From: Acorus gramineus
Taxonomy: Eukaryota; Streptophyta; Magnoliopsida; Acorales; Acoraceae
NCBI GenBank assembly: GCA_030737835.1
Contig: JAUJYN010000018.1
Span: 868,001 to 932,000, forward strand
Length of the DNA stretch: 64,000 nt
Direction of reading: 5' to 3'
Numbering within the stretch: position 1 is the stretch's first letter; each line of letters opens with the position of its first letter. Positions 1-64,000 of this stretch are shown here, piece by piece. Under the pieces are notes generated by a model that saw only the letters and a list, made by a program, of their open reading frames with translations, was not told the DNA's origin and did no database searches. A program made the translations under genes and the position numbers.

Positions 1-2697
1 TACAAGCTCAGTGAGTGGCTAGAAACCAATCACCATACAACAGTTCAATACTAAAGCAATTTTCTTTCAAGGAAAACATGGGTAGAAACCCAATGGATAA
101 CAAGGTCACGCGGCGGCGCGACCAACCTCACCCTCACCCTCACTCCCGGAGGGAGGCTCTTGGGACTTTTGGGGAGTGACCATACCGTTGGTCGAGGAGA
201 CCTGGGATTACTGGTCTACGCAACACTACTGGATCATCTACATCGAGATAACTGCCCAACGATGTCTTTGAACATCGATACTAGACCGGACCCAACAACT
301 ATGGGAACGGACGAACAACAAATGGGTCACGAGGCGACGTGTCTTCACCTCATCCTCACCCTCACTCCCGGAGGGAGACTCTTGGGACTTTTGGAAGAGA
401 CTTAGATTGCTCTACACCCTTGGTCCACTGGTAGCCCTTTCCCTGGGTAGTCACTACCTGGTATACTCCCACGATCAATACGCTTCCGAACGCCTTGGTG
501 GTACCTACTGATGGGAGCCCTCTATCGGGACAGCTTTTCCAACGCCGGGAAGTTCCTACATCGGATCCAACAAAGGGGAGAACGATTCCACGCTCGCAAT
601 ATCATTCGTTAGCCCTCTCCTGGGTAGCCTCTACCTGGTACACTCCCACGATCAGTACGCCCCCGAACGCATCGGTGGTACCTACGGATGGGAGCCCTCT
701 GTCAGGACAGCTACAACCCGGGCCTCTTCAACACGGATGACATTGGGAGTAAACATTCCATGTTCGCAAAGCGAACCCATGGAAATCAACTACTCTCGAT
801 AATCACATATCGAAGAGAGCGAACACTATTGTACTCCCACACGGTTGCGTTGCTCGGACACAAGGGGGTTGCCTCTGCTCTCACGCAGAAATAATCCCAA
901 GGCACATAACTCAACAGGCGGTTCATATACACGCCTAGCACGGGTAGGCCTAGCCTAATGCCCAACTACCGGCTTAACAAAACCGATAAGGTAATGAATT
1001 CTCCTGAATTCCAAACGAGTGCATCGCTCGGATGCACGGGGCGATTACATCGCTAGCGCTCTAACTAATAAGGTACAACCTGACAGCGGGTCATACCCAC
1101 GCCTATTTTAGATAGGCCTAACAGTTTTTTAACATGCGAATATAAATATATCCAGGAGAATTATATCTAGCTATGTGCATGAACCATATGCACAATCATC
1201 TAATAATTATAGGGACACTCCCTAATATGGATTTACATCATAATAAATCATACAACATGCATACATGGTCATTAATCACATAAGCACACAAGGCCTAACT
1301 TAAGCATGTGTTGGATATCACCAACTTAAAAGAAAGGGTCAAACGCGATCTCGCGCACTAACAGGTGCATGCCAATATTCCAAACGAACCTGAGTCGAGT
1401 AAGAAATCGCATCTACTTACTCAGTTCGTTCAGAGGGAGAGGGCGAGAGAGATCATCATCTCATGAAGTTGGTCATAGCTTTGCCCCATTAGCATGGGCG
1501 CAACAACTACACCACGCCCTCGAGTCTTATCGCAAGAGAATATTAGGCAGGCGCCCGTTATTAACCCAGACTCATTCATGCTGGATATTCCAATTATTAT
1601 GGTGGGAGTAGTATTACAATACTACCTAAGGCATGCCATATTTTATACATCCATACACATTACCAAAAATACATGCCCATACTAGAGGGGCTCATGCAAC
1701 ACAATCATTCATACATGAATACAATACATGTATATAAGCCTAGTATGCAAGATATCTACATATTATAGCTTAAGCATGGCCATACTACTTATCTACACAA
1801 GTAGTATAGCTAGGGGGCCCCATCGATGCGCGACGCACGACTACGCGCGTCGAGCGCATCCCGAGAGGGGGGGGGGGATTGGATCGAACCACTCACCGTA
1901 ACCCGGGACCTCGCGCATCCCATCCGACGAGATCTGCAAGGTAAGGGCATCAAATTTGGTGATTAACATCACAATTTAACACTTAGAAATCACTAGAATT
2001 ACCAAAGACTTAGACATGCATGCATACGGGCTCGCACACATACGAGCACGCGCGTACGCACGTATGCCCGAGTGCCCCAGCACCTACTTGATCCCCTGGG
2101 CAGCCCCACGCATGCCCCAGCACGCGCACGCACTGGCACCCAGCCGCGCGCCCAGACACAAGCTCAAGAGCACTGCCCCGCGCACGCGCGCCCCGCTCGC
2201 TACCAGCGTCCGCGCGCACCCGCCCGCCCGCTCTGCGCGCACCTGCACGCCCGCGCGCACGCGCGTGCCTGCGCGCTCGCCTGCGTCTGCCAGTGCCCCT
2301 TTGCGCGCGCACCCGCGCGCAGACAGGCCCCTGCGCGCGTCCAGCACTCCCCAACCCTCTTTTAACCCCTTTTAACCCCTCCCCCACACTTCTCACTCAC
2401 CCTAAACCAATTACCTAACATGCATGACTTCCCTACAACCCCCTAAGCCATGAAAAACCAAGAAAAGAAGGGGAAGAACTCACCTTGGGAGGGGGAATGA
2501 AAGGGGGAGATTCGGGGCCCTCGATGCACCCGCGACCACCTCAACCACCACCACCACTACCACCACCTCCACAGCCCTCCTCAGCCTTCTTTGGCTGCAA
2601 ATCAGGGGGGGGGGGGAACATAAGAGGGAGCTTGAGAGAGGAGAAACCACCACAACAACCACACATGCACAAAACTCACCTTCTTGTGCTTCCTTCA
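1..2697 (-). mobile_element. Truncated family-B LTR, reverse orientation
   Basis: The stretch reads as the reverse complement of the LTR intact at 35454-39078: the TACAAGCTCAGTGAGTGGC block, the (CCCTCA)n block, the GC-rich tract at about 2020-2345 and the purine/pyrimidine-rich leader. The left end is cut by the window. The right end stops at 2697, where the sequence flips abruptly to forward LTR without a terminal CA or target duplication. It is therefore a rearranged fragment, not a clean insertion. No protein is encoded; the Arg/Ala-rich frames come from the GC tract. Confidence 0.85.
1934..2483 (-). other. Candidate LTR intron 1
   Basis: On the minus strand the segment starts with GTGAGT after CCAAG and ends with TTGCAG before ATCTCGTC. 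Length is 550 bp. The GC-rich tract lies inside it. Confidence 0.5.
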
Positions 2698-5142: not shown

Positions 5143-5495
5143 GTAAGTCTTCCCCCTCCCTTAGCTTCCTTAGATGTTTGTTTAGGGTATATAAATGGTT
5201 ATGCATGCTGTGCATGAGTGTTAGGGGGTGTGGAAGGGCTGAGGAGGGGGTGGAAGGGGCTCGGGTGCAGGGGCGCGTGCGGGAGTGCGCATTTGTGCGT
5301 GCGCGTGCGTGGGGCCATGCGTATGGCTGCCCAAGGGTTCGGGAGGGTGTCAGGGCACTCGGACTCGCGTGCGTACGCGCGTGCTCGCGTGCGTGCGGGC
5401 CCGTATGCATGCTTGTCCGAGTATTGGGTATTTCTAGTAAATTTCTTATGTATTTGTGTAGTTTACTCACCATATTGAATGCCCATGTCTTGCAG
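5143..5495 (+). other. Candidate LTR intron 1
   Basis: GTAAGTC follows CTTTGG at 5143, and CTTGCAG ends at 5495. The segment is 353 bp, the shortest copy here. A 36-nt exon (5496-5531) follows, then GTGAGTGGG. Confidence 0.55.
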
Positions 5496-6511: not shown

Positions 6512-7247
6512 GTAAGTCCTCTTCCCCTTATTTTTTATTTTTAGGGTTGTTGGGATGCTTAGGGTGTTCATGCATGCCATGCATAGGGGTTAGGGTGTGT
6601 GTGAGAGGTTGGGAAGGGTTAAAAAGGGGTAGGGGTTGGCTGGGCACGCGTTTCGGGTCGTCTGCGCGCGTGCGCGCACAGGCGCTGGCAGGGTTTGTCG
6701 GGCACGCAGACGCGCGCGGGTGCGCGCGGGAGTGCGCGCGGGTGCACGCGGGTGCTGGCGCGAGCGGGGGTGCGCGTGGGAGTGCGCACGAGTGCGCGCG
6801 AGCGTGCGCACGCGTGGAGCAGGGGCCTGGGCATGCGCCTGGGCGCGGGGCTGGGGACCAGTGCGCGCGCACACACGCGCGCGCGCGCGTGTGTGCGCGT
6901 GCTGGGGCGTGCGTGAGGTGCTGCCCGGGGGGCGCAGTGCGCGCGGGCGCGCCCGAGCGTGCGCGTGTGCGCGGCAGCGCGTCTGGGCGCACGGGCAGGC
7001 GTGCGGCAGTGCGCCGATGGTACAAGGGTGCGTGCGTGCGTGCGCATTCGTGCGTGCTCGTGCGGGGGGCCATGCGTGTGGCTGCCCAAGGGTTCGGGTA
7101 GGTGTCGGGGCACTCAGACTAGCGTGCATACGTGCGTGCTCGCATGCGTGTGAGTCCGTATGCATGCTTGTCCGAGTATGGGGTATCTCTAATAATTTCT
7201 GTGTAAATTGTGTTGTTTCTCACCAGTTCGATGCCCCTACCTTGCAG
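6512..7247 (+). other. Candidate LTR intron 1
   Basis: GTAAGTCC follows CTCTTTTG at 6512, and CCTTGCAG ends at 7247 before ATCTCGTC. It encloses about 500 bp of GC-rich alternating sequence. A 39-nt exon and GTGAGTGG follow. Confidence 0.55.
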
Positions 7248-9118: not shown

Positions 9119-9845
9119 CTGCAAGACAGGGTATTAAACACGGTGAGTAAAATACACAATACATACAAAAATACACAAAAAAATACCCAACACTCGGACA
9201 AGCGTACATACGGCCCGTACGCACGCGAGCCTGAGTGCCCCGACTTACTCCCGAACCCCCAGGCAGCCATACGCATGGCCACCCGCCCCGGGCGCACAGC
9301 CGTGCCCCAGCCCGCGCGCCCAGACGCACTGCCGAGCCCCCTGCCCGCATGCCCGGACACGCTGCCGAGCCCAGCCCGCGCGCCCAGACACACTGCACGC
9401 TCGGGCGCACGCACGCGCGGGCCCGTGCGCACCGCGCGTCCAGCCCTGGATGCACCCGCGCGCACTGCGCCCCAGCGCAGCGCCCCGCACGCGCACCCGC
9501 ACGCACTGCTCCCCAGCGCAGTACCCGCACGCACTCCCCGCTCGCCCTACGCGCACTGCGCCCCCTGCGCAGCAACCGCACACCGCCCGCTCGCCCCGCG
9601 TACTGCGCCCCCTGTGCAGCACCCGTGCGCACGCCCGCGCGCGTGCCTTGCCAGCTCGCACGACAGCGCGCCTGCCTGCCTGCCTATGCGCGCCGCTGAG
9701 CCCGCATGCACCCGAGCCTACCCTAACACCTCCAACCGCCACCAACAACACCCCAACAACCCCCAAACCACCAAGCTCCCCTAGCACACCCATAAACACC
9801 TCCTACACATGCATCTAAACAAGAAAGGAAGGAGAGAAAACTCAC
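9119..9845 (-). other. Candidate LTR intron 1
   Basis: On the minus strand GTGAG follows CTTGG, and the segment ends TTGCAG before ATCTTGAC. Length is 727 bp, mostly GC-rich tract. Confidence 0.5.
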
Positions 9846-12108: not shown

Positions 12109-12991
12109 CTGCAAAATAGGGTAATTAATTCGGTGAGTAAAATACCCAAATAAATCCAAAAATACATTAAAATACACAACACTCGGACAAGCGTACATAC
12201 GGCCTGTACGCACGCGAGCCCGAGCACACCGACTCACTCCCGAAACCCCGAGCAGCCGTACGCGCGGCCACCCGACCCAGGCGCACAGCCGCTCCTCAGC
12301 CCGCGTGCCCAGTCGCACGGTCGAGCCCAGCCCGCACGCCCGGATACCCCGTCGAGCCTCTCGGGTGCACCGCGCGCCCACTGCGCCCCAGCGCAGCAAC
12401 CCGCGTGCACACCCGCACGCCCAGCGCCCCAACGCCTCGCCCCACGCGCACCCCGCGCGCACCACCCGCTCGCACCGACTGCTTGCCCTGCGCGCCCTAC
12501 GCCCCCTGTGCAGCGCCCGCACACCACCCGCTCACCTCTCCGCGCACGCCCTTGCTCGCACGGCGCCGAGCGCCCAGCACCCGCTCGATCGCACGCCCGA
12601 CAGCACGCTCCCAGCGCCCAGCACCCGCTCGCTCGCACGCCCGACAGCACATGCCCCCAGCGCGCCTACCAGCACGCCCCCAGCTCGCCTGCCAGCCCGC
12701 CCGTGCACTGCCTGCCTTCCCGAGCCCTGCCTGCCCGCGTGCATAGCCTACCCAAGCCCTACCTTCCCGCGCGCACAGCCTACCCGAGCCCTGCCTGCCC
12801 GCGTGCACAGCCTACCCGAGCCCTGCCTGCCTGCGCGCACAGCCTACCCGAGCCACTCTACCACCACCCAATGGCAACCAATGGCCTCCAACCGCCCCCA
12901 ACCACCACCGACAGCCACCAACCGCCACCACACACCCAAAAACACCCCCTAACATGCATCTAAACATGGAAAAGAAGGAAAGAAACCTTAC
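12109..12991 (-). other. Candidate LTR intron 1
   Basis: On the minus strand GTAAGG follows CTTGG, and the segment ends TTTTGCAG before ATCTTGACGG. At 883 bp it is the longest copy, owing to an expanded GC-rich tract (about 12190-12850). Confidence 0.5.
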
Positions 12992-26795: not shown

Positions 26796-29700
26796 TGTCA
26801 CGCCCCAGGCCTCCCCGAGACGTGACAATAATAAAATATCAGCTATCAATACCTGAGGTCAATAAAGACTCCAACAACAATACACAAGGCGGCAAAGCAA
26901 GATAATGATAACTGACTGAAAAGCGAAAGCATAATATATAAACAATGTCTGTAAATCAAAAACATTATTACAGACTCGAATACACAATCATTGTCCTGTG
27001 AGAGCCAAGTCTAGACCAAAGAAAATACAACCTGTGCCACATGCACGATTTACAAAGCATAAAATGACTCTAGGAATGCTGACAGCCTCGCACTCGCCAC
27101 CCGCCGGCAAAACGCTCCACGCCCATAAGACCACGCCACAGGAAAGCTCCAGCTCCACGCCCAACACTGCCCCTGAAAAGAAACAGTATGCGAGGGGTGA
27201 GCTACAAGCTCAGTTAGTGGGTCACGCGGTGGAAACCAATCACCATACTACAGTTCAATACATAATCAATTTCCTTTCAAGGAAAACATGGGTGGAAACC
27301 CATGGATAACTGGGTCACGCGGCGGCGCGACCAACCTCACCCCCACCCTCACTCCCGGAGGGAGTCTTTTGGGACTTTTGGGGAGAGACCATACCGTCGG
27401 TCGAAGAGACCCGGATTTACTGGTCTACACAACACTACTGGATTATCTACATCTAGAAAATTGCTCAAACGATGCCTTTAAACATCGATACAAGACCGGA
27501 CCCAACAACTATGGGAACGGTCGAACAACGAATGGGTCACGCGGCAATATTCTTCACCTCATCCTTACCCTCACTCCTGGAGGGAAACTCTTGGGACTTA
27601 TGGAAGATATTTAGACTGCTCTACACCCCTGGTCCACCCGGTAGCCTCTCCCACACTCCGTAGCCTCTACCTGGTATACTCCCACGATCAGCACTGTCCG
27701 ATGCATCGGAGGTACCTACAGATGGGAGCCCTCTATCAGGACAGCTTTCCAACGCCGGGGAGTCCCTACTCGGATCCAACCAAAAGGGAGAACGATTCCC
27801 ACTCCCGTAACATCATTCGTTAACCCTCTCCCGGGTAGTATCTACAACCCGATCTCCTCAACTCACTGCTCTACACCCTTGGTCCGCCAGTAGTCCTTTC
27901 CTCGGGTAGCCTCTACCTGGTATACTCCCACGATCAGCACTCTTCCGAATGCATCGGTGGTACCTACGGATAAGAGCCCTCTGTCAGGACAGCTAAACTC
28001 GAGAAGTTCCTACATCGGATCCAACGAAGGGGAGAACGATCCCATGTTCGCAAAGCGAACCCAATGGAAAACAACTACTCTCGATACTCACTTATCGAGA
28101 TATCAAAACACAGGCATAACAACAATCAACACACTCATATTAACCTTAAAGTAGTCATAGTCCCTATACCGGAGTAGCTACACAAGTTAGAGGGTCGTAA
28201 CATCGCCGACCCACCCCACCCTCACCCTTTAGGGGTGACATGGGCCCTTTCAGACTGGACTGCTCTCCTCCCCTGGTCCACCCGGTAGCCTCTCCCACAC
28301 TCCGTAGCCTCTACCTGGTATACTCCCACGATCAGCACAGTCCGACACATCGGAGGTACCTACAGATGGGAGCCCTCTGTCAGGTCAGCTTTCCAATGCC
28401 GGGGAGTCCCTACTCGGATCCAACCAAAAGGAGAAGACAGCCTACTCACGCGTATACGATCCTCTTGGATCCGTCGACAACGATTTCTAACACTACTAAT
28501 GTCATGAATTCTCAAGAATTCCTCCAGGGCGCATAACTAAGATGCGGGGAAACATATATTATAACAACAAGGTTATAATATTCTCAAAGACATGCTTATA
28601 ACAAGATGTTCTCATTTGATATAATTAAATTAAACTAAATGGGAAACATGCATAGATCGGGGCTTCCCAATCAAGGGACATGGTGTCTAGGCATGTATGG
28701 GCCTCTATACATGTATCATGGATGCATATCCCTAGCATACAAGGTCTAATATGGCATTGTTACATCCTATTAATCATGCATTACATAGTATCCACATATT
28801 ATAGCTACGGGGCCCCTTCCATGCGCGACACGCGTCTACGCGCGTCGAGCGCATCCCAAGAGAGGGGGGGAGGGATTGGAATCGAACCACTCACCATACG
28901 ACCCGGGACCTCGCGCATCCCATCTGACGAGATCTGCAAGGTAGGGGCATCGAATTTGGTGAGTAACAACACAATTTACACATAGAAATCATTAGAAATA
29001 CCCAATACTCGGACAAGCATGCATACAGACTCGCACGCATGCGAGCACGCACGTACGCACGCGAGTGTGAGCGCCCCGATACCTACCTGAAACCTCGGGC
29101 AGCCACACGCATGGCCCCCTGCACGCGCACGCACGCCCCCCAGCACCATCGGCGCACTGCCGCGCGCCTGCCCGCGCGCGTCTGCGCACCGCCTGCGCGC
29201 GCAGACAGCCCCAAACGCGCGCCCAGCCAACCCTTACCCCTTTTTAACCCTCCCCAACCCCTCACACACACTCTAACCCCTATGCATAGCATGCATGACC
29301 TCCCCAACCATCCCAACAACCCTAAAAATAAAAAAGAAGGGGAAGAGGACTTACCAAAAGAGGGAAACGGAAAGGGGGAGGTGCGGGGCTCTCGACGCGC
29401 CCACGGCCACCTCAACCACCACCATCAACACCACCACCTTCAGCCTCTCCTCAGCCTCCTTCTTGGCTGCAAATCAGGGGGGGAGGATCATGATGGGGAG
29501 CTTGAGAGAAGAGAAGATCAACAACAACAACACATGAACAACCCTTCTCTTCTTCCTTCACCATCTCCTTCTCTTTGGGGAATTAAAACAAACACCTAGG
29601 GGGGGCTTTGAAAAGAGAGAAGAGAGGGCCAAGAAATGGATGTGGAAGTGAGAGGGAGAGAGAGAGAGAGAGAAGATATTTTGTTGCACAAATAAATATC

Positions 29701-34826: not shown

Positions 34827-36009
34827 TGTCACGCCCCAGGGCGGCCGTCCCCGAGACGTGGCAATAATGAAGTATCAGCTATCAATACCTGAGGTCAACA
34901 AAGACTCCAACAACAACACACAAGGTGGCAAAGCAAAGATAAATGATAACTGACTGAAAAGCGGAAGCATAAGATATCGACAATGTCAGTAAACCAAAAA
35001 CATTATTACAAACTCGAATACACAATCACTGTCCCGTGAGAGCCAAGTCTAGTCCAAATAAAATACAACCTGTGCCACATGCACGATTTACAATACATAA
35101 TATGACTCTAGGACTGCTGACAGCCTCGCACTCGCCACCCATCGGAAGAACGCTCCACGCCCATAAGACCACGCCACAGGGAAGCTCCAACTCCACATCC
35201 AACACTGCCCCTGAAAAGAAACAGTATACGAGGGGTGAGCTACAAGCTCAGTGAGTGGCTGGAAACCAATCACCATTACAACAGTTCAATGTTAAGGCAA
35301 TTTCTTTTCAAGGAAAACATGGGTAGAAATCCAATGGATAACAAGGTCACGCAGTAGCGCGACCAACCTCACCCTCACCCTCACTCCCGGAGGAAGACTC
35401 TTGGGAATTTTGCGGAGAGACCATACCGTTGGTCGAAGAGATGCGGAATTACTTGTTATGCCTGTGTCCTTTGGAGCCTTATTTTTTTTATCGGATTCGC
35501 TAAAAATTTGGCTTTTAGCCACTTGCAGGAGTTGGAGCGCTCTGATTGAAGATTTGGCTACATAATTTTTCTCCTAGAAGTTATGTATTTCCGATTTAGT
35601 ATTTGGATTTAATTTTGTTAAAATCCAAGATGAAGAGGTTTAAATATGATTTTATTATGAGATGCTCAGTTTTGAGTTAGCTTTCGTATAAAAGTGGAAT
35701 TAGATCAACTGGATTCATGTAGTAAAAGTTATGGGTATTTTTCCAAGTATACTCCGGGGATGAAAAATTCTGGCAGCAGCCCTGTTCTATGTTTAGCTCT
35801 AATTTTGACTAGCTGGAGGGATTATTTGATCTTGGCATAAACATGAAAGTTGTAGATAATCTTCTTGGCTTTCCAGTGGACTTTGAATTGTGCAATTCAA
35901 AGCTATATTGAGGAAGGTATGGCTGTTCTAGTGAAGCATGTACAGAATTTCTAGTCAAGGATGAATTGGTCATTTGTATCTTTCTTTTAGATATTTACTT
36001 GCCCAAAAA

Positions 36010-36350: not shown

Positions 36351-36878
36351 GTGAGCTCTTCCCCTTCTTTTCTTGGTTTTTCATGGCTTAGGGGGCTGTT
36401 AGGGTGTTCATGCATGCTATGCATAGGAGGTAGCGAGTGTGGGAGGGCTGAGGAGGGTGTGGGAGAGGCTGGGCGTGTGCAGGGCCTTGTCTGCGCGCGT
36501 GCGCACGCAGGCGCGCGAGCAGAGGGGTGCTGGCAGGCACAGGCGGGCGCATAGGTGCGCGCGCGCGCTGGTGCGCGCGGAGTGGGCGCAAGCGGGGGTG
36601 CGCGCGGGGCGTGGGCGCAAGCGCGCGCGAGCAAAGCATTGCGCCTGGGCGCGCGGCTGGGCACCAGTGCGCGCGCGCGCGTGCGCGTGCGTGCGTGCGC
36701 GTGCTGGGGCATGCGCGGGGCTGCCCAGGGTCTCGGGTAGGTGCTGGGGCACTCGGGCATGCGTGTGCGCATGCGTGCGAGCCCGTATGCGTGCATGTCT
36801 AAGTCTTTGGTATTTCTAATGATTTCTATGTGCTAAATTGTGATGTTACTCACCAAACTTGATGCCCTTACTTTGCAG
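36351..36878 (+). other. Candidate LTR intron 1 (element B 5' LTR)
   Basis: GTGAGCTC follows CCCAAG, and CTTTGCAG precedes ATCTCGTC; 528 bp. Palindromic CATGCATGC lies before the GC tract and TATGCGTGC after it. The 3' LTR of the same element has a 395-bp version (42510-42904), the difference lying in the GC tract. Confidence 0.58.
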
Positions 36879-42509: not shown

Positions 42510-42904
42510 GTGAGCTCTTCCCCTTCTTTTCTTTGTTTTTCATGGCTTAGGGGGCTGTTAGGGTGTTCATGCATGCTATGCATAGGAGGTAGGGAGTGTG
42601 GGAGGGCTGAGGAGGGTGTGGGAGAGGCTGGGCGGCGCAGGGCCTTGTGTGCGCGCATGAGCGCGCAGGCACGGGCGCAGAGGGGCGCTGGCAGGCACAG
42701 GCGGGCACGCGGGGCATTGCGCATGGGCGCCCTGCTGCCAAGGGTCTCGGGTAGGTGCTGGGGCACCCGGGCATGCGTGCGTACGCGCGTGCTCGCATGC
42801 GTGCGAGCCCGTATGCGTGCATGTCTAAGTCTTTGGTATTTCTAATGATTTCTAAGTGCTAAATTGTGATGTTACTCACCAAACTTGATGCCCTTACCTT
42901 GCAG
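42510..42904 (+). other. Candidate LTR intron 1 (element B 3' LTR)
   Basis: GTGAGCTC follows CCCAAG, and CCTTGCAG precedes ATCTCGTC; 395 bp, with a GC tract of only about 170 bp. Confidence 0.55.
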
Positions 42905-44582: not shown

Positions 44583-44685
44583 CCCTTCTTTGGCTGAGAA
44601 GAAGGCTTTGTGGTGGTGGTCTTGGAGGTGGCGAATCGGTGCGCGAAGAGCACCCGATTTCCTCCCCTTCCCTTCCTCTCCTTGG

Positions 44686-45183
44686 GTGAGCTTTCTTTCC
44701 TTCCTTTTCTTGTGTAGATGCTTGATTAGGATGTGTTTTTGGGTATGCATGGCATGCATGGTGGTTGGGGGTGTTGGAGGGGGGGGGGGGGTTGTTGGGG
44801 GCTGTGGGGGTGGTGGAGTGGCTTGGGTGCGCGTGCGGGATCATCCCTCCGCGTGCGCGTGGGCCTGTGCGCGCAGGCAAGGCAGGCGTGCAGTCGGGCG
44901 AGCTGGCGCGTGCGCGCGGGTGCTGCGCAGGGGCGCAGTGCGCGCGGGGCGAGCGAGCGTGCGCACGGGGGTGCGTGCGTGTGTGCGCACCCGTGCGTGC
45001 GCGTGCGGGTGGCCGTGCGCTTGGCTGCCCGGGGGTACGGGAGTGTGTCGGGGCACTCGGACTCGCGTGCGTACGGGCCCGTATGCATGCTTGTCCGAGT
45101 GTTGGGTATTTCTAGCGTATTTTGTATGTATTTAGTATGTATTTGTGTATTTTACTCACCATGTTGAATGCCCTGTCTTGCAG
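44686..45183 (+). other. Candidate LTR intron 1 (element C 5' LTR)
   Basis: GTGAGC follows CCTTGG and GTCTTGCAG ends at 45183; 498 bp with the GC-rich tract inside. A 36-nt exon (45184-45219) follows. Confidence 0.57.
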
Positions 45184-45219
45184 ATCTTGGCGGACGGTCA
45201 CGCGACGACCCGGGTATTG

Positions 45220-46457: not shown

Positions 46458-46469
46458 TGGTATCAGAGC
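46458..46469 (+). other. Primer binding site, element C
   Basis: TGGTATCAGAGC five bases after the LTR end, matching initiator tRNA-Met as in element B. Confidence 0.92.
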
Positions 46470-46573
46470 CTGGTCCTGTCAGAGCCAATTGTTTTCTTTC
46501 TTCGTAGAGATGAGTCCTAGGATTTCTATATGAGTATTCTGATCCTAGTGTCTGGTTTTCTTAGGTTGCTGAT

Positions 46574-50407: not shown

Positions 50408-50440
50408 ATGTTCTTGTATTTATTTTGGGGACAAAATTTC

Positions 50441-50455
50441 CTAAGGGGGGAAGAA
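50441..50455 (+). other. Polypurine tract, element C
   Basis: CTAAGGGGGGAAGAA directly before the 3' LTR; it primes plus-strand synthesis. Confidence 0.9.
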
Positions 50456-53132
50456 TGTTATATATGTGTCACTTTTTGCCTTCTGGTCACCATTGGAGCA
50501 TTCTGGCAGTTTTTTTCAGCTTTTTCTTTTTCGATCGGAACCGCTAAAATTTTGGATTTTTGGCTATCATCATGAGCTTGAGAACTCTGATTGAAAATCT
50601 AACTGCATATTATGTGTCCTGGTGCCATTCCAAGCCGCTCATGAAAATTTCATCGAATTCTGGTAACGCTTTAGAATTTCGCAGTTTTGAATCGTATCCG
50701 GGTTTTGACCAAGCGAAAAGTCATTGGGAGACTTGACTTGGTCAAAGTTGACCCTTGACTTGGTCAATTGGTTTTGTTTGGTAGTGTGGTTGGGTTGACT
50801 AGGGTCAAAGCTCACCTAAACCTAGCTTAACCTAATTAATTTCTAAGTGTAAGTGAGTGGTGAGTGTGTGAGTGTGTGTGTGGTGTGTGTGTGGTGACTT
50901 AAAGAGGTCCACGCCCAAGAATAGTTCCCCCTCCCTATTCATCATCTTCTCTCTCAAGCTCTCTCAAAAGCTCTCACTCCCTCTCTTTAGATACCCCATT
51001 TGACCTAGTTAGAGTGTTCAAAAGAAGAACCCATTGAAGGAGAAAAGATAGGTGAGGACCCGATCTATCTTTCTATGGTCTTGGATCTCCATTTCCCCTT
51101 GGTTTTCCTCCTCTCTTACCTCCTTTTATCCCCTGTTTTCAGCCCTTCTTTGGCTGAGAAGAAGGATTGGTGGTGGTGGTCTTGGAGGTGGCGAATCGGT
51201 GCGCGAAGAGATGCGGATTAGGATGTGTTTTTGGGTATGCATGGCATGCATGGTGGTTGGGGGTGTTGGAGGGGGGGGGCTGTTGGGGGCTGTGGGGCTG
51301 GTGGAGTGGCTCGGGTGCGCGTAAGGGATCATCCCTGCGCATGCGCACAAGCCTGTGCGCGCAGGCAAGGCAGGCGGGCAGACGGGTGAGCAGGTGCGTG
51401 CGTGCGGGCATGCGTGCGGGTGCTGCGCAGGGGGTGCAGTGCGCGCGGGGCGAGCGAGCGTGCGCACGGGGGTACTGTGCTGGGGCACAGTGCGCGCGGG
51501 TGCACCCAGGGCTGGACGCGCGGTGCGCGCTGGCACGCGCGGGCGTGCGCACGAGCGTGCGGCGTGTCTGGGCGTGCGGGCAGAGGCGCGGCAGCGCGCC
51601 TGGGCGCACGGGCTAGGGTGCGGCAGTGCGCCCGGGGCGCGGGTGTGCGTGCGTGCGTGCGCACCCGTGCGTGCGCGTGCGGGTGGCCGTGCGCATGGCT
51701 GCCCGGGGGTGCGAGAATGTGTCGGGGAACTCGGACTCTCGTGCGTACGGGCCCGTATGCATGCTTGTCCGAGTGTTGGGTATTTCTAGCGTATTTTGTA
51801 TGTATTTAGTATGTATTTGTGTATTTTACTCACCATGTTGAATGCCCTGTCTTGTAGATCTTGACGGACGGTCACGCGACGACCCGGGTATTGGTGAGTG
51901 GGACAATCCATCCCAGTAGGGAGGCGTTCTATACACTTAGGAGTGTATTGCCCTCCGTTGGGGCACCATAGTTGCATATTAACTTTTATTAACTATAACT
52001 ATGCATGCATGATTATTATGTAGTATCCATGCCACCCTAGACCTTGTATGTTAGGGATACTTGCCCTTTATGATATGTATAAATGCCCATGCATCCTGAT
52101 ACTATGTTTTCATGCTAGGAAAGCCTCAACCTACGCATGTGTCCCATTTAGTTTAATTTATTTAAATCAAATGCGAGTTATTGATAATTAGCATGCTTAG
52201 TGAATATTATAACCTTGTGGTTATAATATAGGCTTCCCCGCATCTTAGTTATGCGCCCTGGAGGAATTCTGAAGAATTCATGACATTTGTAGAGTTGAGA
52301 TCGGTGTCGGCGGATCCAAGTGGATCGTATCCGTGTGGGTAGGCTGTTTCTCTTCCCTTCGTTGGATCCGTGTAGGGACTCCTCAGCGTTAGACAGGCCG
52401 TCCTGACAGAGGGCTCCCATCAGTAGGCACCTCCTGATTTGGTTTCGGACTGTGCTGAATCGTGGGAGTAGACCAGGCGAGCTACGGTGTGGAGGAGAGG
52501 CTATCGGTGGACCAAGGGCGATTAACAGCCTAGTCAGTCCCAAAAGACCATGTCACCAGTTTGAGGGTGAGGGTGAGGGTGTAGTGGGTTGGCGATGAGC
52601 GACCCACTGGTTTGTGTAGTTGTTGCCACTTAGAGGCTATGAATGATTTGAGGTTAATATGAATTGTGATGCATGGGTTGTGCTATTCACTGAGCGTGTG
52701 GCTCACCCCTCGCATATATTTTTCTTCAGTGATCTCCGAGTCGGATCTGAAGGAGGAGCTCCCCGAGGCACGTCAGCAGTAGCGGAGCAGCGCCACATTC
52801 TGCTTGCGAGAGGCCATCAGCATCCCCCCCTCCCTTTGATTGTATGTATCGTATTCTGTGCTTGGGCACATGTTTGTATTATATTTGGATGTCGTTGTAT
52901 ATATTGGCTCTCACAGGACAGTTGATTATGTATCGAGTCTGTAATATGTCTTTGAATTACAGATTCAGTCTTTAAGCTTCCGCTATTTGTGTATATATCA
53001 TGTCAGCCTCATTGTTGTCTGTGTTGTTATTTTTGATGTTGTTTAGGGTATGTTATTGACCTCCTGTATAGACTGCTGATATCATATATACCATTTGCCG
53101 CGTCCCGGGGACGGCCGCCCTGGGGCGTGACA
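50456..53132 (+). repeat. Element C 3' LTR
   Basis: 2677 bp, ending GGGGCGTGACA. It has lost about 75 bp near 51210 that contain the intron-1 donor in the 5' LTR, while its GC tract (about 51310-51760) is longer. The acceptor reads CTTGTAG (51857). Confidence 0.94.
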
Positions 53133-54319: not shown

Positions 54320-54440
54320 TTGGGAAAAGAAACCTTGGGAGGGCAGCATGAGGTCCCGATATAGGACATCCTGACAACCAAACAAGGAACACGGAGCACC
54401 CTAGCCCGGGTCTCAATGTTGACCTCGCAAGGCCCCTCCC
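54320..54440. mobile_element. 121-bp MITE-like insert, copy 2
   Basis: Same length and same 10-bp flanks TATAATATTA (54310-54319, 54441-54450) as at 11665-11785. Confidence 0.6.
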
Positions 54441-54765
54441 TATAATATTATCAAGGCATGCTGAAATCATATGCTAGCATTTAATTTAAATAAATTAAAC
54501 TAAATGGGAACATGCATCGGTCGGGGCTTCCTAGCATGCGAACAGGGTGACAGGATGCATGGCTCTTACACATATCCTAAGGGTGCAAGTCCCTAACATA
54601 CAAAGTCTAGGGTAGCATGCATACTACATATTAATCAAGTTAATATTAACCGTGGTGCCCCAGGGGAGGACGGTATACGCCCAAGTGCATATAGCGCCTC
54701 CCAACTGGGTTGGATTGTACCACTCACCAACACACTCGGGTCGTCGCGTGACCGTCCGTCAAGAT

Positions 54766-55455
54766 CTGCAAGACAGGGTAATCAACTCGGTGAGTAAAAT
54801 ACATAAATACCACTACAAATACACTAAAAATACCCAACACTCGGACAAACGTACATACGGTCCGCACGCACGCGAGCTCGAGCACCCCGACTCAATCCTG
54901 AACCCCTGGGCAGCCATTCGCATAGCCACCCGCACGCGCACGCACGAATGCGCACGCACGCACACACCCCGGCACCACCGGCGCATTGCCGCGCGCCTGT
55001 TCGCGCGCCCCAACGCACTGCCGCACGCACGCGCACGCTCGCGCGCGCCCGCCCGCGCCCCACGCGTAGCACCCCGCTCACGCCCCAGCACGTGCACGCA
55101 CGCACGCGCACGCGCGCGCGCACCGGTCCCCAGCTCCGCGCCCAGGCGCCCTGCCTCGCGCCCAGGCGCCCAACCCGCGCGCGCGCCCGCGCGCACCCCC
55201 GCTCGCACCCTCTCTCGCGCTTGCACCCACGCGCAATCCCGCGCGCACCGGCGCGCACGCGCCCGCGCGCGTCTGTGCGCCCGCCTGCGCGCGCACGCGC
55301 GTAGACGACGCCCAGCACGCACCCATCCCATTCTAACAACATTTTCACCCATCCCAACCCCTCACACACACCCTAACACCTCTACCTAGCATGCATGACT
55401 TCCCAACCAACCCCTTAAGCCAAGAAAACCAAGAAAAAGGAGGGGAGGAGCTCAC
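54766..55455 (-). other. Candidate LTR intron 1
   Basis: On the minus strand GTGAGCTC follows CCAAG, ending TTGCAG before ATCTTGACGG; 690 bp. Confidence 0.53.
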
Positions 55456-56410
55456 CTTGGGAGGGAAAAGAAAGGGAGAGGTTCGGGGGGCCTTCGCGCA
55501 CCGAAACGCCGCCACCGGAACCACCACCTCCACTCAGCCTCCTCATGGCAGCAAAACAGGGGGGGGGGGGGGAGAACATGCAAAAAGGAAGCTTGAGAGA
55601 GGGAAGAAAACAAGCAACAACACATGAACCACCATCACTTCCTCCTCCACCATCTCCTTCTCTTTGAAACAAAAACACAAACACTTGGGGGGGCAAAGGA
55701 AAAGAGAAGGAGAGACCAGATGATGTTGTCGTGGGATTTGGGAGGGGAGAGAGAGAGGAGAAGAGATATTTATCAAAATATCTAAGGAGAATTTACTAAG
55801 TCGCCCTTCGACTAGAAATTCTGCACAAGCTTCACTGGAACAGCCATAACTTCCCCGATACAGCTCCGAATTGCTTGATTCCAAGACCGATGGAAAGCTA
55901 AGAAGATTATCTACAACTTTCATGTTCATGGAAAGATCAGATAATCTCTCCAGCTAATCCGAAATTAGAGCTAAACATGGAACAGGGCTGCTGCCAGAAT
56001 TTCCATCCCCGGGGTATACTTGGAAAAATACCCATAACTTTTACTACAAGAATCCAGTTGGTCTAATTCCACTTCTGTGCGAAAGCTAACTCAAAACTGG
56101 ACATCTCATAATAAAATCATAATTAAACCTCTTCATCTTGGATTTTAACAAAATCAAATCCAAAACCCAAATTGGAAATACATAACTTAGGAAAAAAAAA
56201 ATTATGTACCCAAATCTTCAAACAGGGCACTCCAAATGACACAGACACAACAGCTCCCATCCGTAGGTACCACCGATGCGTTCAGGAGCGTACTGATCGT
56301 GGGAGTATACCAGGTAGAGGCTACCCGGGAGAGGGCTAACGAATGATATTGCGAGCGTGGAATCGTTCTCCCCTTCGTTGGATCCGATGTAGGAACTCCC
56401 CGGCTATGTG

Positions 56411-59112
56411 TGTCACGCCCCAAGGCGGCCGTCCCCAATACGTGGCAAATATATATAATATCAGCAGTCAATACAGGAGATCAATAAAAGACTCTAAACA
56501 ACATCGAAAATGACAACATAATCAATAATGTAGCTGACATAATATATATACATATAGCGGAAGCTTAAACGACTGAGTCTATAATTCAAAGACATATTAC
56601 AGACCCGAATACATAATCAACTGTCCTGTGAGAGCCAATATAAACAAAGACATCCATATACAAGTGTTGTGCCCAAGCACGGATAACAATACATACAAGC
56701 AAAGAAGGGGATGCTGATGGCCTCTCACTCGCAGAACCCAAAACGTGAACGCTGCTCCGCTACTGATGTGATGCCTCGGGGAGCTCCTCCTTCAGATCCG
56801 ACTCAGTAACAACTGGAGGAAAAGAATATGTGAGGGGTGAGCCACACGCTCAGTGAATGGCACAATCTATGCAACACAACTCATATTAACCTTATAATAG
56901 TTAAAGTCCCTAAACGGGAGTAACTGTACAAGCTAGTGGGTCGTAACATCGCCGACCCACCCCACCCTCACCCTCACCCTTTAGGGGTGACATGGGCCTT
57001 TTGGGACAGACTAGACTGCTCTCCACCCTTGTCCACCAGTAGCCTCTCCCTCGCGTAGCCTCTACCTGGTATACTCCCACGATCAATACCCTCCGAACGC
57101 ATCGGTGGTACCTACAGATGGGAGCCCTCTGTCAGGACAGCTTTCCCAACGCCGGGGAGTCCCTACTCGGATCCAACGAAGGGAGAAAATAGCCTACTCA
57201 CACGGATACGATCCTCTTGGATCCGTCGACAACGATTTCTAACACTACTAATGTCATGAATTCTCAAGAATTCCTCCAGGGCGCATAACTGAGATGCGGG
57301 GAAACATATATTATAATAACAAGGTTATAATATTTTCTAAGGCATGCTCATACCAACATAATCTCATTTTGATTTAATTAAATTAAACTAAATGGGAAAC
57401 ATGCATAGATCAAGGCATGTATGGGCCTCTATACATGATACATGGATGTATATCCCTAGCATACAATGTCTAATATGGCATGGTTACATCATAGTAAAAC
57501 ATGCATTAACATAGTTTCTCATTGACACAAGTTAATATGCAATTATGGTGCCCCAGGGGAGGGCAATGCACGCCTACGTGCATCGAACGCCTCCCTACTG
57601 GGTTGGATTGACCCACTCACCGCAACCCGGGTCGTTGCATGACCGTTCGCCAAGATCTGCAAGACATGGGCATTCAATATGGTGAGTAAACTACACAAAT
57701 ATACATGAAATTTACTAGAAATACCAAATACTCGGACAAGCATGCATACGGACTCGCACGCATGCGAGCACGCATGTACGCACGCAAGTCTGAGTGCCCC
57801 GACACCTACCCGAACCCTCGGGCAGCCACACGCATGGCCCCCCGCACGCGCATGCACGCATACGCACGCACGCACGCGCCCCAGCACCCTCGGCGCACTG
57901 CCGCGCGCCTGCCCGCGCGCGCGCGCACGCTCGCGTCTAGCCCGCGCGCCCTCGCGCGCACTACGAGCCCGTGCAGAACCCCGCGCATGCCCCAGCACGC
58001 GCACGCACGCGCACTGCCCCCCAGCCCCGTGCCCCGACGCATGCCCGAGCGCACTGCCCCGCGCGCGCGCACGCCTTGCTCGCACCCCCGCTCGCGCCAG
58101 CGCCCGCACGCTTCTGTGCGCCCGCCTGCGCCTGCCAGCACCCTCCTGCGCGCGCCCAGCCTATCTTAACCCCTTTTTAACCATCTCCAACCCCTCACAC
58201 ACACTCTAACTCATATGCATAGCATGCATGAACACCCTAACCATCCGAACAACCCTAAAAATCAAAAAGAAGGGGAAGAGGACTTACCAAAAGAGGGAAA
58301 GGGAAAGGGGGAGATGCGGGGCTCTCGACGCGCCCACGACCACCTCAACCACCACCACCACCATCACCACCTCTTCAGCCTCTCCTCAGCCTCCTTCTTG
58401 GCTGAAAATCAGGGGGGGGGGGGGAAAGGGCATGAGAGGGAGCTTGAGAGAAGAGATCAACAACATCAACAACACCTACACAAACCCTCACCAACACTTC
58501 CTCCTCCACCTTCTCCTTCTCTTTGAGGAAATAACACAAACACCTTGGGGGGGCTTTGAAACAGAGAAAGAGAGACAAGAAGTTGACGTGGGATGTGGGA
58601 GAGAGAGAGGGAGAGATATTTTGGGGCACATAAATATCCTAAAGAGGGATCAAATGACTAAGTCGTCCTTGACCAGAAATTCTGTACATGCTTCACTAGA
58701 ACAGCCATAACTTCCTCAATATAGCTCCGAATTGCACAATTCAAAGTCCGTTGGAAAGCCAAGAAGATTATCTACAACTTTCATGTTTATGCCAAGATCA
58801 AATAATCCCTCTAGCTATTCCGAAATGTGAGCTAAACATTGAACAGGGCTGCTACCAGAATTTCCATCCCCGGGGTATACTTGGAAAAATACCCATAACT
58901 TTTACTACATGAATCCAGTTGATCTAATTCCACTTTTGTATGAAAGCTAACTCGGAACTGAGCATCTCATAATAAACTCATACTTAAACCTCTTCATCTT
59001 GGATTTTAAACAAATCAAATCCAAATACCTAATTGGTAATACATAACTTCTAGGAAAAAAATTATGTAGCCAAATTTTCAATCAGAACGCTCCAAATGAC
59101 ACAGGCATAACA
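56411..59112 (-). mobile_element. Family-B-type solo LTR, reverse
   Basis: From TGTCACGCCCCAAGGC to GACACAGGCATAACA, 2702 bp. Flanks ATGTG (56406-56410) and ACGCG (59113-59117) can both derive from ACGTG, the base order of the uninterrupted LTR, by one change each. The interrupted LTR resumes at GAGGGAAAGGGCTACCGG. Confidence 0.88.
57657..58287 (-). other. Candidate LTR intron 1
   Basis: On the minus strand GTAAGTCC follows CTTTTG, ending TTGCAG before ATCTTGGCG; 631 bp. Confidence 0.55.
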
Positions 59113-61645
59113 ACGCGAGGGAAAGGGCTACCGGTGGACCAAGAGTGTAGAGCAGTCTAAGTCTCTTTCAAAAGTCCTATGTCACCTCTAAGGGGTGAGG
59201 GTGAGGATGAGATGAAGACACATCACCGCGTGACCCATTCGTTGTTCGTCCGTTCCCATAGTTGTTGGGTCCGGTTGTGTATCGATGTTCAAAGACATCG
59301 TTGGGCAGTAATCCCGATGTAGATGTTCCAGTAGTGTTGTGTGGACCAGTAATCCCGGGTCTCCTCGACCAACGGTATGGTCTCTCCCCAAAAGTCCCAA
59401 GAGTCTCCCTCCGGGAGTGAGGGTGAGGGTGAGGTTGGTCGCGCTGCCGCGTGACCCTGTTATCCATGGGTTTCCACCCATGTTTTCCTTGAAAGGAAAG
59501 TGCTTATGTATTGAACTGTTGTATGGTGATTGGTTTCTAGCCACTCATTGAGCTTGTAGCTCACCCCTCGCATACTGTTTCTTTTTAGGGGCAGTGTTGG
59601 GCGTGGAGTTGGAGCTTCCCTGTGGCGTGGTCTTATGGGCGTGGAGCATTCTTCCGGCGGGTGGCGAGTGCGAGGCTGTCAGCAGTCCTAGAGTCATTGT
59701 ATGTATTGTAAATCGTGCATGTGGCACAGGTTGTATTTTCTTTGGTCTAGACTTGGCTCTCACATGACAGTGATTGTGTATTCGAGTCTGTAATAATGTT
59801 TTTGGTTTACAGACATTGTTTATATATTATGCTTCCACTTTTCAGTCAGTTATCATTATCCTTGCTTTGCCACCTTCTGTGCTGTTGTTGGAGTTTTTAT
59901 TGACCTCACGTATTGATAGCTGATATTTCATTATTGCCACATCTCGGGGACGGCCGCCTTGGGGCGTGACATTACTGGTCACACAACACTACTGGATCAC
60001 CAACCTCACCCTCACTCCCGGAGGGAGACTCTTGGGACTCTTGGGGAAAGACCATATCGTTGGTCAAAGAGACCCGGAATTACTGGTCTACACAACACTA
60101 CTGGATCATCTACATCGAGATAACTGCCCAACGATGTCTTTGAACATCAATACGCAACCGGACCCAACAACTATGGGAACGGACGAACAACGAATGGGTC
60201 ACGCGGCGACATGTCTTCACCTCATCCTCACCCTCACCCTTTAGAGGTGACATAAGACTTTCAGAGAGATTAGACTCCTCTACACCCTTGGTCCACCGGT
60301 AGCCCTTTCCCTGGGTAGCCTCTACTTGGTATACTCCCTTGATCAGTAGGCTTCCGAACGGATCAGTGGTACCTACGGATGGGAGCCTCTGTCTGGACAG
60401 CTTTTCCAACGCCGGGAAGTATGTACATCGGATTGAACGAAGGGGAGAACGATTTCACGCTCGCAATATCATTCGTTATCCCTCTCCCGGGTAGCCTCTA
60501 CCTGGTACACTCCCACGATCAGTACGCTTCCGAACGCATCGGTGGTACCTACAGATGGGAGCCCTCTGTCAGGACAGCTTTAACCCGACCCGCTTCAACA
60601 CGGACGACATTGGGAGGAAACACTCCATGTTCGCAAAGCGAACCCATTGGAAAAACTACTCTCGTTAATCGCCTACTTAATGCCCAAGCTACCGGTTTAA
60701 CAAAACCGATACAACAAATGAATTCTCCTGAATTCCATTCAAGTGCATCCCACGGACGCAGGGGCAATTACATTGCTCGCACACTAACTAATGAGGTACA
60801 TCCCAACGACGGGTCGTACCCATGCCTATTTCAGATAGGCCTATTTAGTTTTAACATGTGCGTATATATAACAGGAGAATCATATCATAGCTATGTGCAT
60901 GAACCATATGCACGATCATCTAACATTTGATTATAAGGGTAACCCCTAACATGGATTTACATCATAAACAACATGCATACAAGGTATGGCCATTAATCAT
61001 ATAAGCACACAAGGCATAACTTAAGCATGCGTTGGATATCACCAACTTAAAAAGGAAGGGTCAAGCGTGATCTCGCGCACTAACAGGTTCATGCCAATAT
61101 TCCAAACGAACCTGAGTCGAGTAGGAAATCGCATCTACTTACTCAATTCGTGCAGAGGGAGAGGGCGAGAGAGATCATCATCTCATGAAGTTGGTCATAG
61201 CTTTGCCCCATTAGCATGGGTGCAACAACTACACCATGCCCTCGAGTTTTATCGCAAGGGAATATTAGGCAGGTGCCCGTCATTAACCCAGACTTAATCA
61301 TGCTGGATATTCCAATTAATATGGTGGGAGTAGTATTACAATACTACCTAAGGCATGCTTATTCTATACATTCATGAAAACCCATATCACACATGCCCAT
61401 ACATGAAGGGCGCATGCATACCTAATAGTTCACACATGAACACACATAGGCAAGTATATGGTAGAAAAGGGGGTTTCTACACAATATACAAGCTTTACTA
61501 ACCTAGCATGTAAATACTTAGCATATTATAGTTTAATTGTGGCCATACTACTTATCTTACGCGTATAGCCAAGGTGCCCCATCGATGCGCGATGCACGAC
61601 TACGCGCGTCAAGCGCATCTCGAGGGGTTGGATCAAACCACTCAC

Positions 61646-61735
61646 CTATACCCGGATCGCTGCGCGTCCGGTCTACGAGATCAAAACAGGGGGAGGGAAA
61701 TGGGGAGATGCGGGGTTCTCGACACACCCACGACC
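61646..61735 (-). other. Precise intron-1-less junction in element D LTR
   Basis: On the minus strand the exon before intron 1 (ending CTGTTTTG, cf. CTCTTTTG|GTAAGT elsewhere) is joined directly to the next exon (ATCTCGTAGACC, cf. TTGCAG|ATCTCGTC) at 61682/61681. The following 36-nt exon (61681 down to 61646) and its GTGAG donor are intact. No base of the intron remains. Confidence 0.8.
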
Positions 61736-62386
61736 ACCTCAACCACCACCACCACTACCACCACCTCATCAGCATCTCCTTAAGCTCCTTTCTCACTCTT
61801 TCTTGTGCTTCTTCTTCATCTTTTCCTTCAATTACTTCTTCCTCCTCCTCCTTCACACACAAAGAAGAGAAAAAAAAAGAGACCAATAGAGGGAGAGAAG
61901 GTGTTCCACGAAATGGGAGAGAGGGGGAGAGAGAGGAAGGGCAAAAAGGACATTCTCATGCCCAAATAGTGTCTAGGGGTGACCATAAGGGGGGGTGAGG
62001 TTAGAGTTAGGCTCACCAATTCACATACCAAAAGACCAATGGTTTCTTCATCACTAAGCAAGGTGGGGGTAAGGTTACCAAAGGTCACCCCATCCTCAAA
62101 ATATCTCCCACTATTCGACCAACCAGGAACTCTCAAAACCCGGAGACGGTTCGGAACTGCATATTTTTCAAAACGTTACTAGAATTCGATGAAATTTTTA
62201 TGGGTAGTACTAAGCAGTACCAGGACCCATAATATGCAGTTAGATTTTCAATCAGAGTACTCCAACTCTTGCAGGTAGCTAAAAGCCAAAATTTTAGCGA
62301 CTCCGATCGAAAAAGAAAAAGGCTCTGAATGACCCAGATGAGACCAAGGCTTAACCGAAATGGCTCCAAATGACACAGGCATAACA

Positions 62387-62400
62387 TTCTCCCTCCCTTA
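62387..62400 (-). other. Polypurine tract, element D
   Basis: TTCTCCCTCCCTTA is the complement of a purine tract next to the LTR start, as in B and C. Confidence 0.82.
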
Positions 62401-64000
62401 GGAAATTTAATCCTCGAAATTTAAGGAAACCCAAAGGGAAGACCGAATGTAGCAAGTATCACGCATAGACCTTTTGCTTCCAAGTGGTCTATGCACCAAA
62501 CTAGCGCTACCGACACACTCTAATCAAAGGAACGGTCTTAGCGTGGAGCCTCTTCTCATGATGGTCCTTGACCTCGATCCACTGCTCCACGAACGATAAA
62601 TCTAGCTCGAGGATGAGGCGGTCGAACGGAATGACTGAGCAGGATCGTGGACATAACGCCTCAGCCCTGAGACAAGGACGACGTCGTGGGCATGAGCCAG
62701 CTGTGGGGGAAAGGCTACATGACAAGCCACCTCCCCAATCCACTCAAAGATGAGAACCGGTCCGATGAAGGGCCGACTCAGCTTGCCCTGAACGTCGAAA
62801 CTAAGGTAAGCTCTTGGCGACGATGACCTGCGTAGCCCTTCTATCGGTTCTGGGAGGTGCAGATGCACACATGAACCAACCTGGCCACTGCAAGGTCAAA
62901 TAAATAACTTGTGGCCACTCCAACTGGCGCTCCTCAACCGTCCCAACACAAGGGAGGTATAAAACTGATCCTGTAGAGTGCCTTTTTCAGGTCCATCTGG
63001 ATGCTCGAATGGCAGTCGTCTTGCAGGCATACCCCAACAAATGGGTGGTGCCTCACCAAACATCCATTATCATTGAGCATGCAGGCACTTAGCATGTCCT
63101 CCAAGGTCAGAATCGTCCTTTTGCTTGGCCATTCATCGGCGGTGAAACGCTGCACGTAGATGGAGGCTCGTGCCAAAACCTCAAAGTAACCCTCGCGTCT
63201 CAACCTGAAATAGCGCCGACCGAAGTGCCATGAAGACAAATAATCGCGAAGGTGGAAACCCACGTCAAGGAGTCCAGAGATTCAATCAGTCAGATTAGGG
63301 AGGGAAGTGCGGACTTAGTCTGTCGGTCATTGATCACCTAGATGGCGTCGCGACCTGAACCTGACTTTAGCGAGCCCGCAGCAATCCCTGATAACCCACT
63401 CCCACGTCCACTGAGGAATCTCGATGGACTGATGCTTTCCACTCAATGATGATTCTCAAACTTGCTTGAGGGCATGCCAACCTAGGGAAACAAGGTCACC
63501 CATATCGCCTTTTCATCGCACCACTAGCAATCTCAATGAGGACTACCTCAAAGTAGTCCACGGAGACCCAATAAAACTTTTGAGATCCACGAAGGCATCC
63601 GGTGCATTCGTCAACCCCGACAGCAGTACTTAAAACTCTTAGTGCCTGAAACGGTCACGAAAGGCCATCTACAGGATGTCCAACTCCCGGATCTCTGACT
63701 TGTGGTACCCTTGTGCGAAGATTGATCTAACAGAAGACACTCGCTCCCAGAGCTGGTCAAATAGATCATCAATTCACAGCAAGGGGTACCTGATCTTCAA
63801 CCCTTACCGGAAGATCAAAACAACACCTCGAACAATTAAGTCCAGATTCTGCTCCTCGAGCATGGCTGGCGCTCATGATGACACTTACACGCTTGGTAAG
63901 CCGCTCAACCACACTTAATCCACAAGACACGCAATAAGGGGGTCGTCAAACCTCGACAATGCCTATGCGACATCATCTATCTGATAGGGCGGTTGAGTCC
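62401..64000 (-). pseudogene. Gutted pol region of element D
   Basis: Read on the minus strand, this matches element B's internal region from 41620 back to about 40020. It shows the integrase C-terminal piece GEVACHVAFPPQLAHAHDVV near 62700-62760, an integrase piece RTILTLEDMLSACMLNDNG near 63060-63120, a DRLTKS-like piece near 63325, and reverse-transcriptase fragments near 63580-63780. Stops and frame changes throughout. The element continues beyond the window. The shared layout with B shows both descend from one defective master. Confidence 0.8.

Follow-up and report, generated by a model that had tools for sequence, protein, structure and literature searches.

A marked Ty1 element loses its artificial intron, and host genes lose introns exactly when their spliced RNA is reverse-transcribed, as in retrogenes and mRNA-mediated intron loss. 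Among retroviruses, human T-lymphotropic virus 1 (HTLV-1), the foamy viruses and human immunodeficiency virus (HIV) have a splice donor in R or in the leader. In tobacco, spliced mini-Tnt1 RNA is reported to be reverse-transcribed and integrated, and more than one mRNA is argued to serve as template (PMC2923131). The Ogre elements of legumes carry a natural intron in the element body, between gag-pro and RT-RH-INT (PMC6317226). Here we describe long terminal repeat (LTR) retrotransposons of Acorus gramineus with predicted introns inside the LTR itself, and an element, D, that has lost two of them. D lies in a stretch of 64,000 nucleotides (nt) of contig JAUJYN010000018.1 (GCA_030737835.1, positions 868,001 to 932,000 of the forward strand), referred to below as the window.

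Of 13 window LTR copies that span the region concerned, 12 have the intron that we call intron 1; D is the exception. On the minus strand, D reads CTGTTTTG followed directly by ATCTCG, with exon 1 joined straight to exon 2 (join between 61682 and 61681), just as the original prediction had it. The size that it gave for the segment in the other window LTRs, 353–883 bp, is likewise right (11 copies with both ends), and the short upstream intron that it suspected to be absent from D (intron 0) is indeed missing: aligned within the window only, intron 0 of D is ambiguous by at least a dozen nt, and genome copies decided the matter. The intron 1 of D's own family, however, is different from that of the window neighbours. 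In a free-jump alignment with 11 references, the segment missing from D ends exactly on the splice sites against three, namely B, C and G, where the placement ties only with a shift by 1 nt of both ends together. The A1 and F references give an equal shift of 5–6 nt at both ends, with length preserved, and against the remaining six, which are more distant, the gap is not placed exactly. Random breakpoint pairs within 150 nt are expected to show GTRAG..YAG in about 0.0002 of cases, and ordinary gaps of at least 25 nt between close copies have GT..AG ends in 0 of 11.

The other LTR of D, to which the original prediction had pointed, lies beyond the window (L009; G000:C56:932801-936300). It has the identical junction and no intron 1, and it is 94–95% identical to the 3' LTR, intron 2 included. 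The primer-binding site (PBS) follows this LTR, and a 5-bp target-site duplication (TSD), CTAAG, flanks D at both ends. D retains intron 2, from the donor at 61645 to the acceptor at 35210.

The LTR layout in this family consists of exons 0, 1, 2 and 3 and introns 0, 1 and 2, all upstream of the primer site. Intron 1 donors are GT[A/G]AG in 11/11 copies, and its acceptors are CAG in 11/12 and TAG in one; a CTCAC element stands approximately 25 nt before the acceptor in 11/12 copies, and the splice-site columns are better conserved than the columns around them. Intron 0 is 61–95 bp long (11 window copies with both ends set) and its acceptor is AG in 10/12; its donors were picked by eye, the sequence after GT varies, and the signals are weaker than those of intron 1. 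Exon 2, of 36–39 nt, is directly followed by GTGAGT, the intron 2 donor, in 13/13 copies, and a pattern search finds 16 intron 2 acceptors in the window; intron 2 is roughly 0.8–1.9 kb long. With GT..AG ends and branch-point-like and polypyrimidine signals conserved in diverged copies, introns 0–2 appear to be of the spliceosomal type.

All evidence on splicing given here comes from comparing genomic DNA sequences, and the genome searched was the window's own assembly (398,581,865 bases, 137 contigs). A 101-nt query over the D junction returned 2262 candidates, 40 of which were scored (L001–L040; 89–98% identity over 99–101 of 101 bases). These D-like copies are intronless by design of the query, which holds the spliced join; the position of their ends is not by design. 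Compared with four intron-bearing D-family copies set as parents (intron 1 of 507–522 bp), the loss of intron 1 is exact in 38/40; the other two, L021 and L037, differ by one at the acceptor. The endpoints in other intronless copies, on which the original prediction had laid weight, are thus shared splice-site ends.

Exact patterns, which are an unbiased sample in this respect, found 26 D-type spliced joins in the genome and 673 D-type exon 2 sites still behind an intron acceptor (control 0 for each). For the other classes, 82 spliced-join sites (reversed control 0+1) compare with 8505 acceptor sites (control 0+0). When 30 of the 82 were read, 23 proved to be real spliced LTRs, four were intron-bearing with altered acceptors and three were unrelated; spliced loci of different classes each have the exon ends of their own class. 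Acceptors stand to spliced joins at about 100:1 in most classes and 26:1 in the D family, which puts intronless joins, by pattern count, at approximately 1% and 4%, respectively. A looser pattern applied to the 80 kb left of the window gave 15 matches, 11 with an intron acceptor (one of them with the exon 2 of D) and four unrelated by eye. By position, nine same-strand neighbour pairs of intronless sites lie 5.1–9.6 kb apart, with no opposite-strand pairs; this spacing is as expected for two LTRs of one element sharing the loss, and the one pair read (L054/L055) is 96.9% identical over 2.1 kb. The further intronless LTRs for which the original prediction looked to the genome thus number in the dozens, and intron loss is a recurrent process across the family rather than the mark of one odd copy. 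At G000:C3:2035579-2042344, five D-type intron 1 acceptors are spaced about 1.68–1.69 kb apart, perhaps a tandem array of LTR pieces.

Intron 0 provides the strongest evidence for an origin by splicing, as judged from the sequences compared. In Q', L019 and L079 (D-family copies that keep this intron), its acceptor reads TTTTCTG in place of a sequence ending in AG. Eleven of the 40 D-like copies, the two LTRs of D included, have their join at the AG that follows, 8 nt downstream (a placement that ties by 1 nt either way), and all 11 best match a parent with the dead acceptor. Exact intron 0 joins occur in eight of the 40: L011, L012, L018 and L025 against L081 (CAG), L023 against L083 (TAG), and L013, L021 and L028. 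At a parent-match score of at least 160, a cut set afterwards, the join is exact in 5/5 copies with live-acceptor parents (L081 and L083; L011, L012, L018, L023 and L025) and is the +8 join, at offsets (0,+8), in 11/15 with dead-acceptor parents (Q' and L079, CTG). The other four of these 15 are L031, within a base at (0,7)/(1,8), L019, which keeps intron 0, and L010 and L014, which differ. Over all 40 copies, the tally is eight exact, 11 cryptic, one within a base of cryptic, one kept and 19 other. An acceptor changed from AG to TG with the join moved to the next AG is what splicing predicts and DNA deletion does not. It is possible, for the D-type lineage as such, that the +8 join is an exact join followed by a later loss of 8 nt. 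By eye, L033 and L037 have the same exon 0 end (GATGATTAAG), continued from the canonical acceptor in L037 and from the +8 AG in L033, as if one intron had given both splice products; the automatic test against L080 placed neither exactly.

Copies that retain the introns indicate the direction of change. Two pieces of D-family LTR lie side by side approximately 75 kb left of the window. Q' runs from exon 0 through intron 0 and exon 1 to the intron 1 donor; Q carries just the end of exon 1, followed by the whole of intron 1 (518 bp) and a D-type exon 2. L019 has lost intron 1 and retained intron 0, in contrast to the D-type copies, which have lost both. Six D-family acceptor loci were fetched; five have intron 1 with its donor (L079–L083), four of these with both ends of intron 0, and for the sixth, L084, the usual donor was not obtained. 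In midpoint-rooted trees, which have no outgroup, D falls among intron-bearing copies. A tree of 90 rows (63 spliced and 27 intron-bearing, the three unrelated loci having been dropped; 154 columns) requires 13 changes of state (12–13 in bootstraps), at least nine of which are forced by starred branches, always at the same LTR position, and it contains sister pairs of opposite state (e.g. B0/L057 and H51/L063); in some cases, as with L001/L009 and L054/L055, a single element contributes both of its LTRs as rows. The intron-bearing form is ancestral, on the basis of the parents L079–L083, Q' and L019 and of the trees. In L041 (4662-5950), two D-family LTR pieces stand in opposite orientation with matching intron 1 sequences facing, an inverted rearrangement beside the intron-bearing parents.

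We consider it highly probable from these comparisons that reverse transcription sometimes starts from leader RNA that has been spliced inside the LTR and that the resulting intronless copies transpose further. Transcription would start before exon 0, to judge by eye from a TATA-like sequence, and introns 0, 1 and 2 would lie downstream of this likely promoter, separating short leader exons, all within the LTR. Most of the RNA that is copied would still carry its introns. Occasionally, the template, primed at the PBS, would be a leader from which intron 0, intron 1 or both had been spliced; minus-strand strong-stop DNA would then transfer this shorter leader to the 3' end, leaving both new LTRs without those introns. 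That both LTRs inherit a shortened leader follows from the standard LTR replication cycle. Such copies would transpose again and found small intronless lineages, D belonging to one of them. The original prediction had the RNA spliced inside U5 and then reverse-transcribed; the retro-loss is supported, and the splicing is placed in the LTR rather than specifically in U5. Since acceptors far outnumber joins, either the usual template retains the introns, or intronless lineages fare badly, or recombination between RNAs restores what was lost. A further proposal, for which we see an even balance of probability, is a two-RNA strategy: the RNA with the unspliced leader would be the genome that is copied and the spliced RNA the messenger, introns 0 and 1 would be lost through accidental copying of the messenger, and intron 2 would hold something that the genome cannot lose. 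The rarity of intronless joins despite repeated loss would then mean that the LTR introns are worth keeping or are regained by recombination.

The same data bear on other histories. Deletions of the ordinary kind (slippage, microhomology, unequal recombination) do occur here, as the donor deletion of H51, away from the splice sites, the 11 gaps of at least 25 nt between close copies and the shrunken intron 0 of L073 testify, and they might have produced the look of intron loss by chance. We regard this as very improbable: none of the 11 gaps ends at GT..AG, the same join turns up in LTRs of different classes, many copies lack both intron 0 and intron 1, and the shifted join tracks the dead acceptor. 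Less credible still, and close to being discounted altogether, is the alternative that the original prediction held in reserve, that intronless D is the ancestral form and the introns are a gain of the other copies. Two points would suit such a history: EF, being inserted in D, is the younger of the two insertions, and the trees lack an outgroup. It does not survive comparison with the D family, however: intron carriers are common there (673 acceptor sites), D is nested among carriers under midpoint rooting, the changes on the tree, at least nine, always strike the same LTR position, the +8 join in D-type copies needs an earlier intron with a dead acceptor, and L019, Q' and L079–L083 contradict it. 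Somewhat more room, though still an unlikely case, is left for spliced cDNA having entered existing LTRs by gene conversion or recombination instead of arriving as new insertions. Copy G, whose exon 1 groups with those of B and C but whose exon 2 groups with that of B0, speaks for exchange of this kind. Against it, D has a TSD and the same joins in both LTRs, and the spacing of the nine same-strand pairs is that of complete elements. Conversion of single LTRs would leave LTR pairs of mixed state.

The account by reverse transcription of spliced leader RNA also has evidence to answer, and the following points weigh against it. In 19/40 D-like copies (L003, L027 and L036 included), intron 0 has other offsets or is cut off; L015, L020, L030, L033–L035, L037 and L040 are not exact despite a best parent with a live acceptor, and L013, L021 and L028 are exact though their best, but weak, reference has a dead one. 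Among the 23 non-D spliced loci, intron 1 is exact in 11 against the best of 11 window references and in the remainder is not; with wider references, GT..AG stands at the best breakpoint in nine, and 11 loci pass in neither comparison (12 in at least one). These other loci probably lack a close intron-bearing reference. At intron 0, nine non-D spliced loci comprise two exact cases (L053 and L067, against A1), two with an equal shift and five others, and in L073 intron 0 has shrunk to 12 nt, which is not a splice product. The tree rests on 154 columns and its bootstrap is not settled, and recombination between LTR classes is evident. Finally, the loss is partial, affecting introns 0 and 1 and not intron 2, which is kept in 63/63 rows without intron 1 (eight with one donor mismatch); a genome search with the exact pattern of exon 2 joined to exon 3, for one class, found 0 sites. 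At a guess, a poly(A) site or a packaging signal inside intron 2 might explain its retention.

Table 1. Positions in the window of the features of D and of the intron 1 copies in other LTRs.
Feature	Position	Strand	Basis or remark
D 3' LTR, first part; start TGTTATG at 62386, broken at 59972 by EF	59972..62386	-	LTR start after polypurine tract; EF insertion with TTACT; 94-95% to L009
D 3' LTR, second part, end CGTGACA; flank CTAAG is the D target-site duplication	34827..35455	-	resumes after EF; 94.4% to L009
Junction 0 of D, exon 0 to exon 1 at cryptic acceptor 8 nt inside exon 1 (ties 1 nt either way)	61786..61787	-	L001 best fits parent Q', offsets (0,+8)
Exon 1 of D, 105 nt (intron-bearing parents 112-113 nt)	61682..61786	-	parent comparison
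Junction 1 of D, join of exons 1 and 2 with intron 1 exactly absent	61681..61682	-	direct reading, gap alignment, parent comparison
Exon 2 of D, 36 nt	61646..61681	-	
Intron 2 donor of D, GTGAGT, retained	61640..61645	-	
Intron 2 acceptor of D, TTTCTTTTCAG before GGGCAG, retained	35210..35211	-	one of 16 such window acceptors (pattern)
A1 intron 1 (550 bp)	1934..2483	-	
B0 intron 1 (353 bp)	5143..5495	+	
B intron 1 (736 bp)	6512..7247	+	
X9 intron 1 (727 bp)	9119..9845	-	
X12 intron 1 (883 bp)	12109..12991	-	
C intron 1 (421 bp)	28934..29354	-	
E intron 1 (528 bp)	36351..36878	+	
F intron 1 (395 bp)	42510..42904	+	
H44 intron 1 (498 bp)	44686..45183	+	
H51 intron 1 remnant, donor gone by ordinary deletion, left limit approximate, acceptor TTGTAG	51210..51857	+	
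K55 intron 1 (690 bp)	54766..55455	-	
G intron 1 (631 bp)	57657..58287	-	

The LTRs have the termini TGTTATG..CGTGACA; they end in GGGGCGTGACA, which in elements is followed by TGGTATCAGAGC as the primer site (positions of individual features are given in Table 1). TSDs are TTACT for EF, ACAGT for H, GCTCC for K55 and CTAAG for D. Element H has Pfam matches to Retrotrans_gag, RVP_2, RVT_1 and RT_RNaseH, and its chromodomain (PF00385) scores 23.6 bits against a cutoff of 25.1; with gag, protease, reverse transcriptase and RNase H, the element is a Ty3/gypsy LTR retrotransposon, and with the near-cutoff chromodomain it is probably a chromovirus. The sole Pfam match in the part of D within the window is SH3_Tf2-1. 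By coordinates, the body of D between its LTRs (62387-64000, on to approximately 65060 past the window end) measures about 2.7 kb, too short for gag-pol, and D thus looks non-autonomous. Element EF (35456-59971, TSD TTACT), whose LTRs E and F are 93.6–97.2% identical by piece, is inserted in the 3' LTR of D, and the 3' LTR of EF in turn contains element H (43895-53132, TSD ACAGT), LTR K55 (53276-56252, TSD GCTCC) and LTR G (56411-59112, no clear TSD); this nest gives the order of insertion.

Several LTR copies are rearranged in other ways. A 596-bp tandem duplication (98%) at 9820-11013 joins LTR ends to an intron 0 acceptor; at about 10421 (minus strand), the start of an intron 1 abuts the end of an intron 2, exon 2 being absent; and 22596-23265 holds two tandem LTR 3' ends (repeat of approximately 343 bp, 90%). 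The intron 0 remnant of L073 reads GTAAGATTTCAG, with both splice sites retained and intron 1 gone. Rfam at gathering thresholds gave no match in the window, and the long frame at 6283-7101, which in copy B spans exon 1 and intron 1, has no Pfam match. The idea that splicing serves to strip upstream AUGs was set aside, as the densities of ATG (20.1 per kb in intron 1, 4.3 in exon 1 and 31.3 in exon 2) do not make a clean case.

The intronless copies serve as natural cDNA fossils, showing where splice sites lie even without RNA data, and they include a natural splice-site mutant together with its predicted cryptic product. The system opens to test how frequently spliced RNA is reverse-transcribed in nature, and why introns persist although the life cycle of such an element should remove them. 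To our knowledge, introns lying wholly inside LTRs have not been described. A phrase search of 5.39 million open-access papers, outside which most subscription journals fall, found no intron in an LTR or in U5, its matches being to the unrelated bacterial ltrB gene and a lentiviral vector LTR1; among the matches listed in broader searches there was likewise no such intron.

Marked Ty1 and mini-Tnt1 resemble the elements described here in that spliced RNA is reverse-transcribed, the intron is lost exactly and a target-site duplication is made. In those systems, however, the intron is an artificial one built into a marker gene, whereas here it is natural, lies in the LTR, is present in thousands of copies by pattern count and has been lost repeatedly in evolution. 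The Ogre intron is in the element body, in contrast to introns in the LTR. Intron loss from host genes has the same exactness; here, a retroelement loses introns of its own, both LTRs are changed and later copies inherit the change. Retroviral leader splicing is similar in that its donor sits close to the 5' end of genomic RNA and in drawing spliced and unspliced RNAs from one promoter, which for the present elements is a prediction. The retroviral acceptor, however, lies far downstream of the primer site and yields a subgenomic mRNA, whereas both the donors and the acceptors of introns 0–2 lie inside the LTR, upstream of the primer site. The chemistry is thus known from these systems; what appears to be new is the location in the LTR, together with the scale and the repeated loss in nature.

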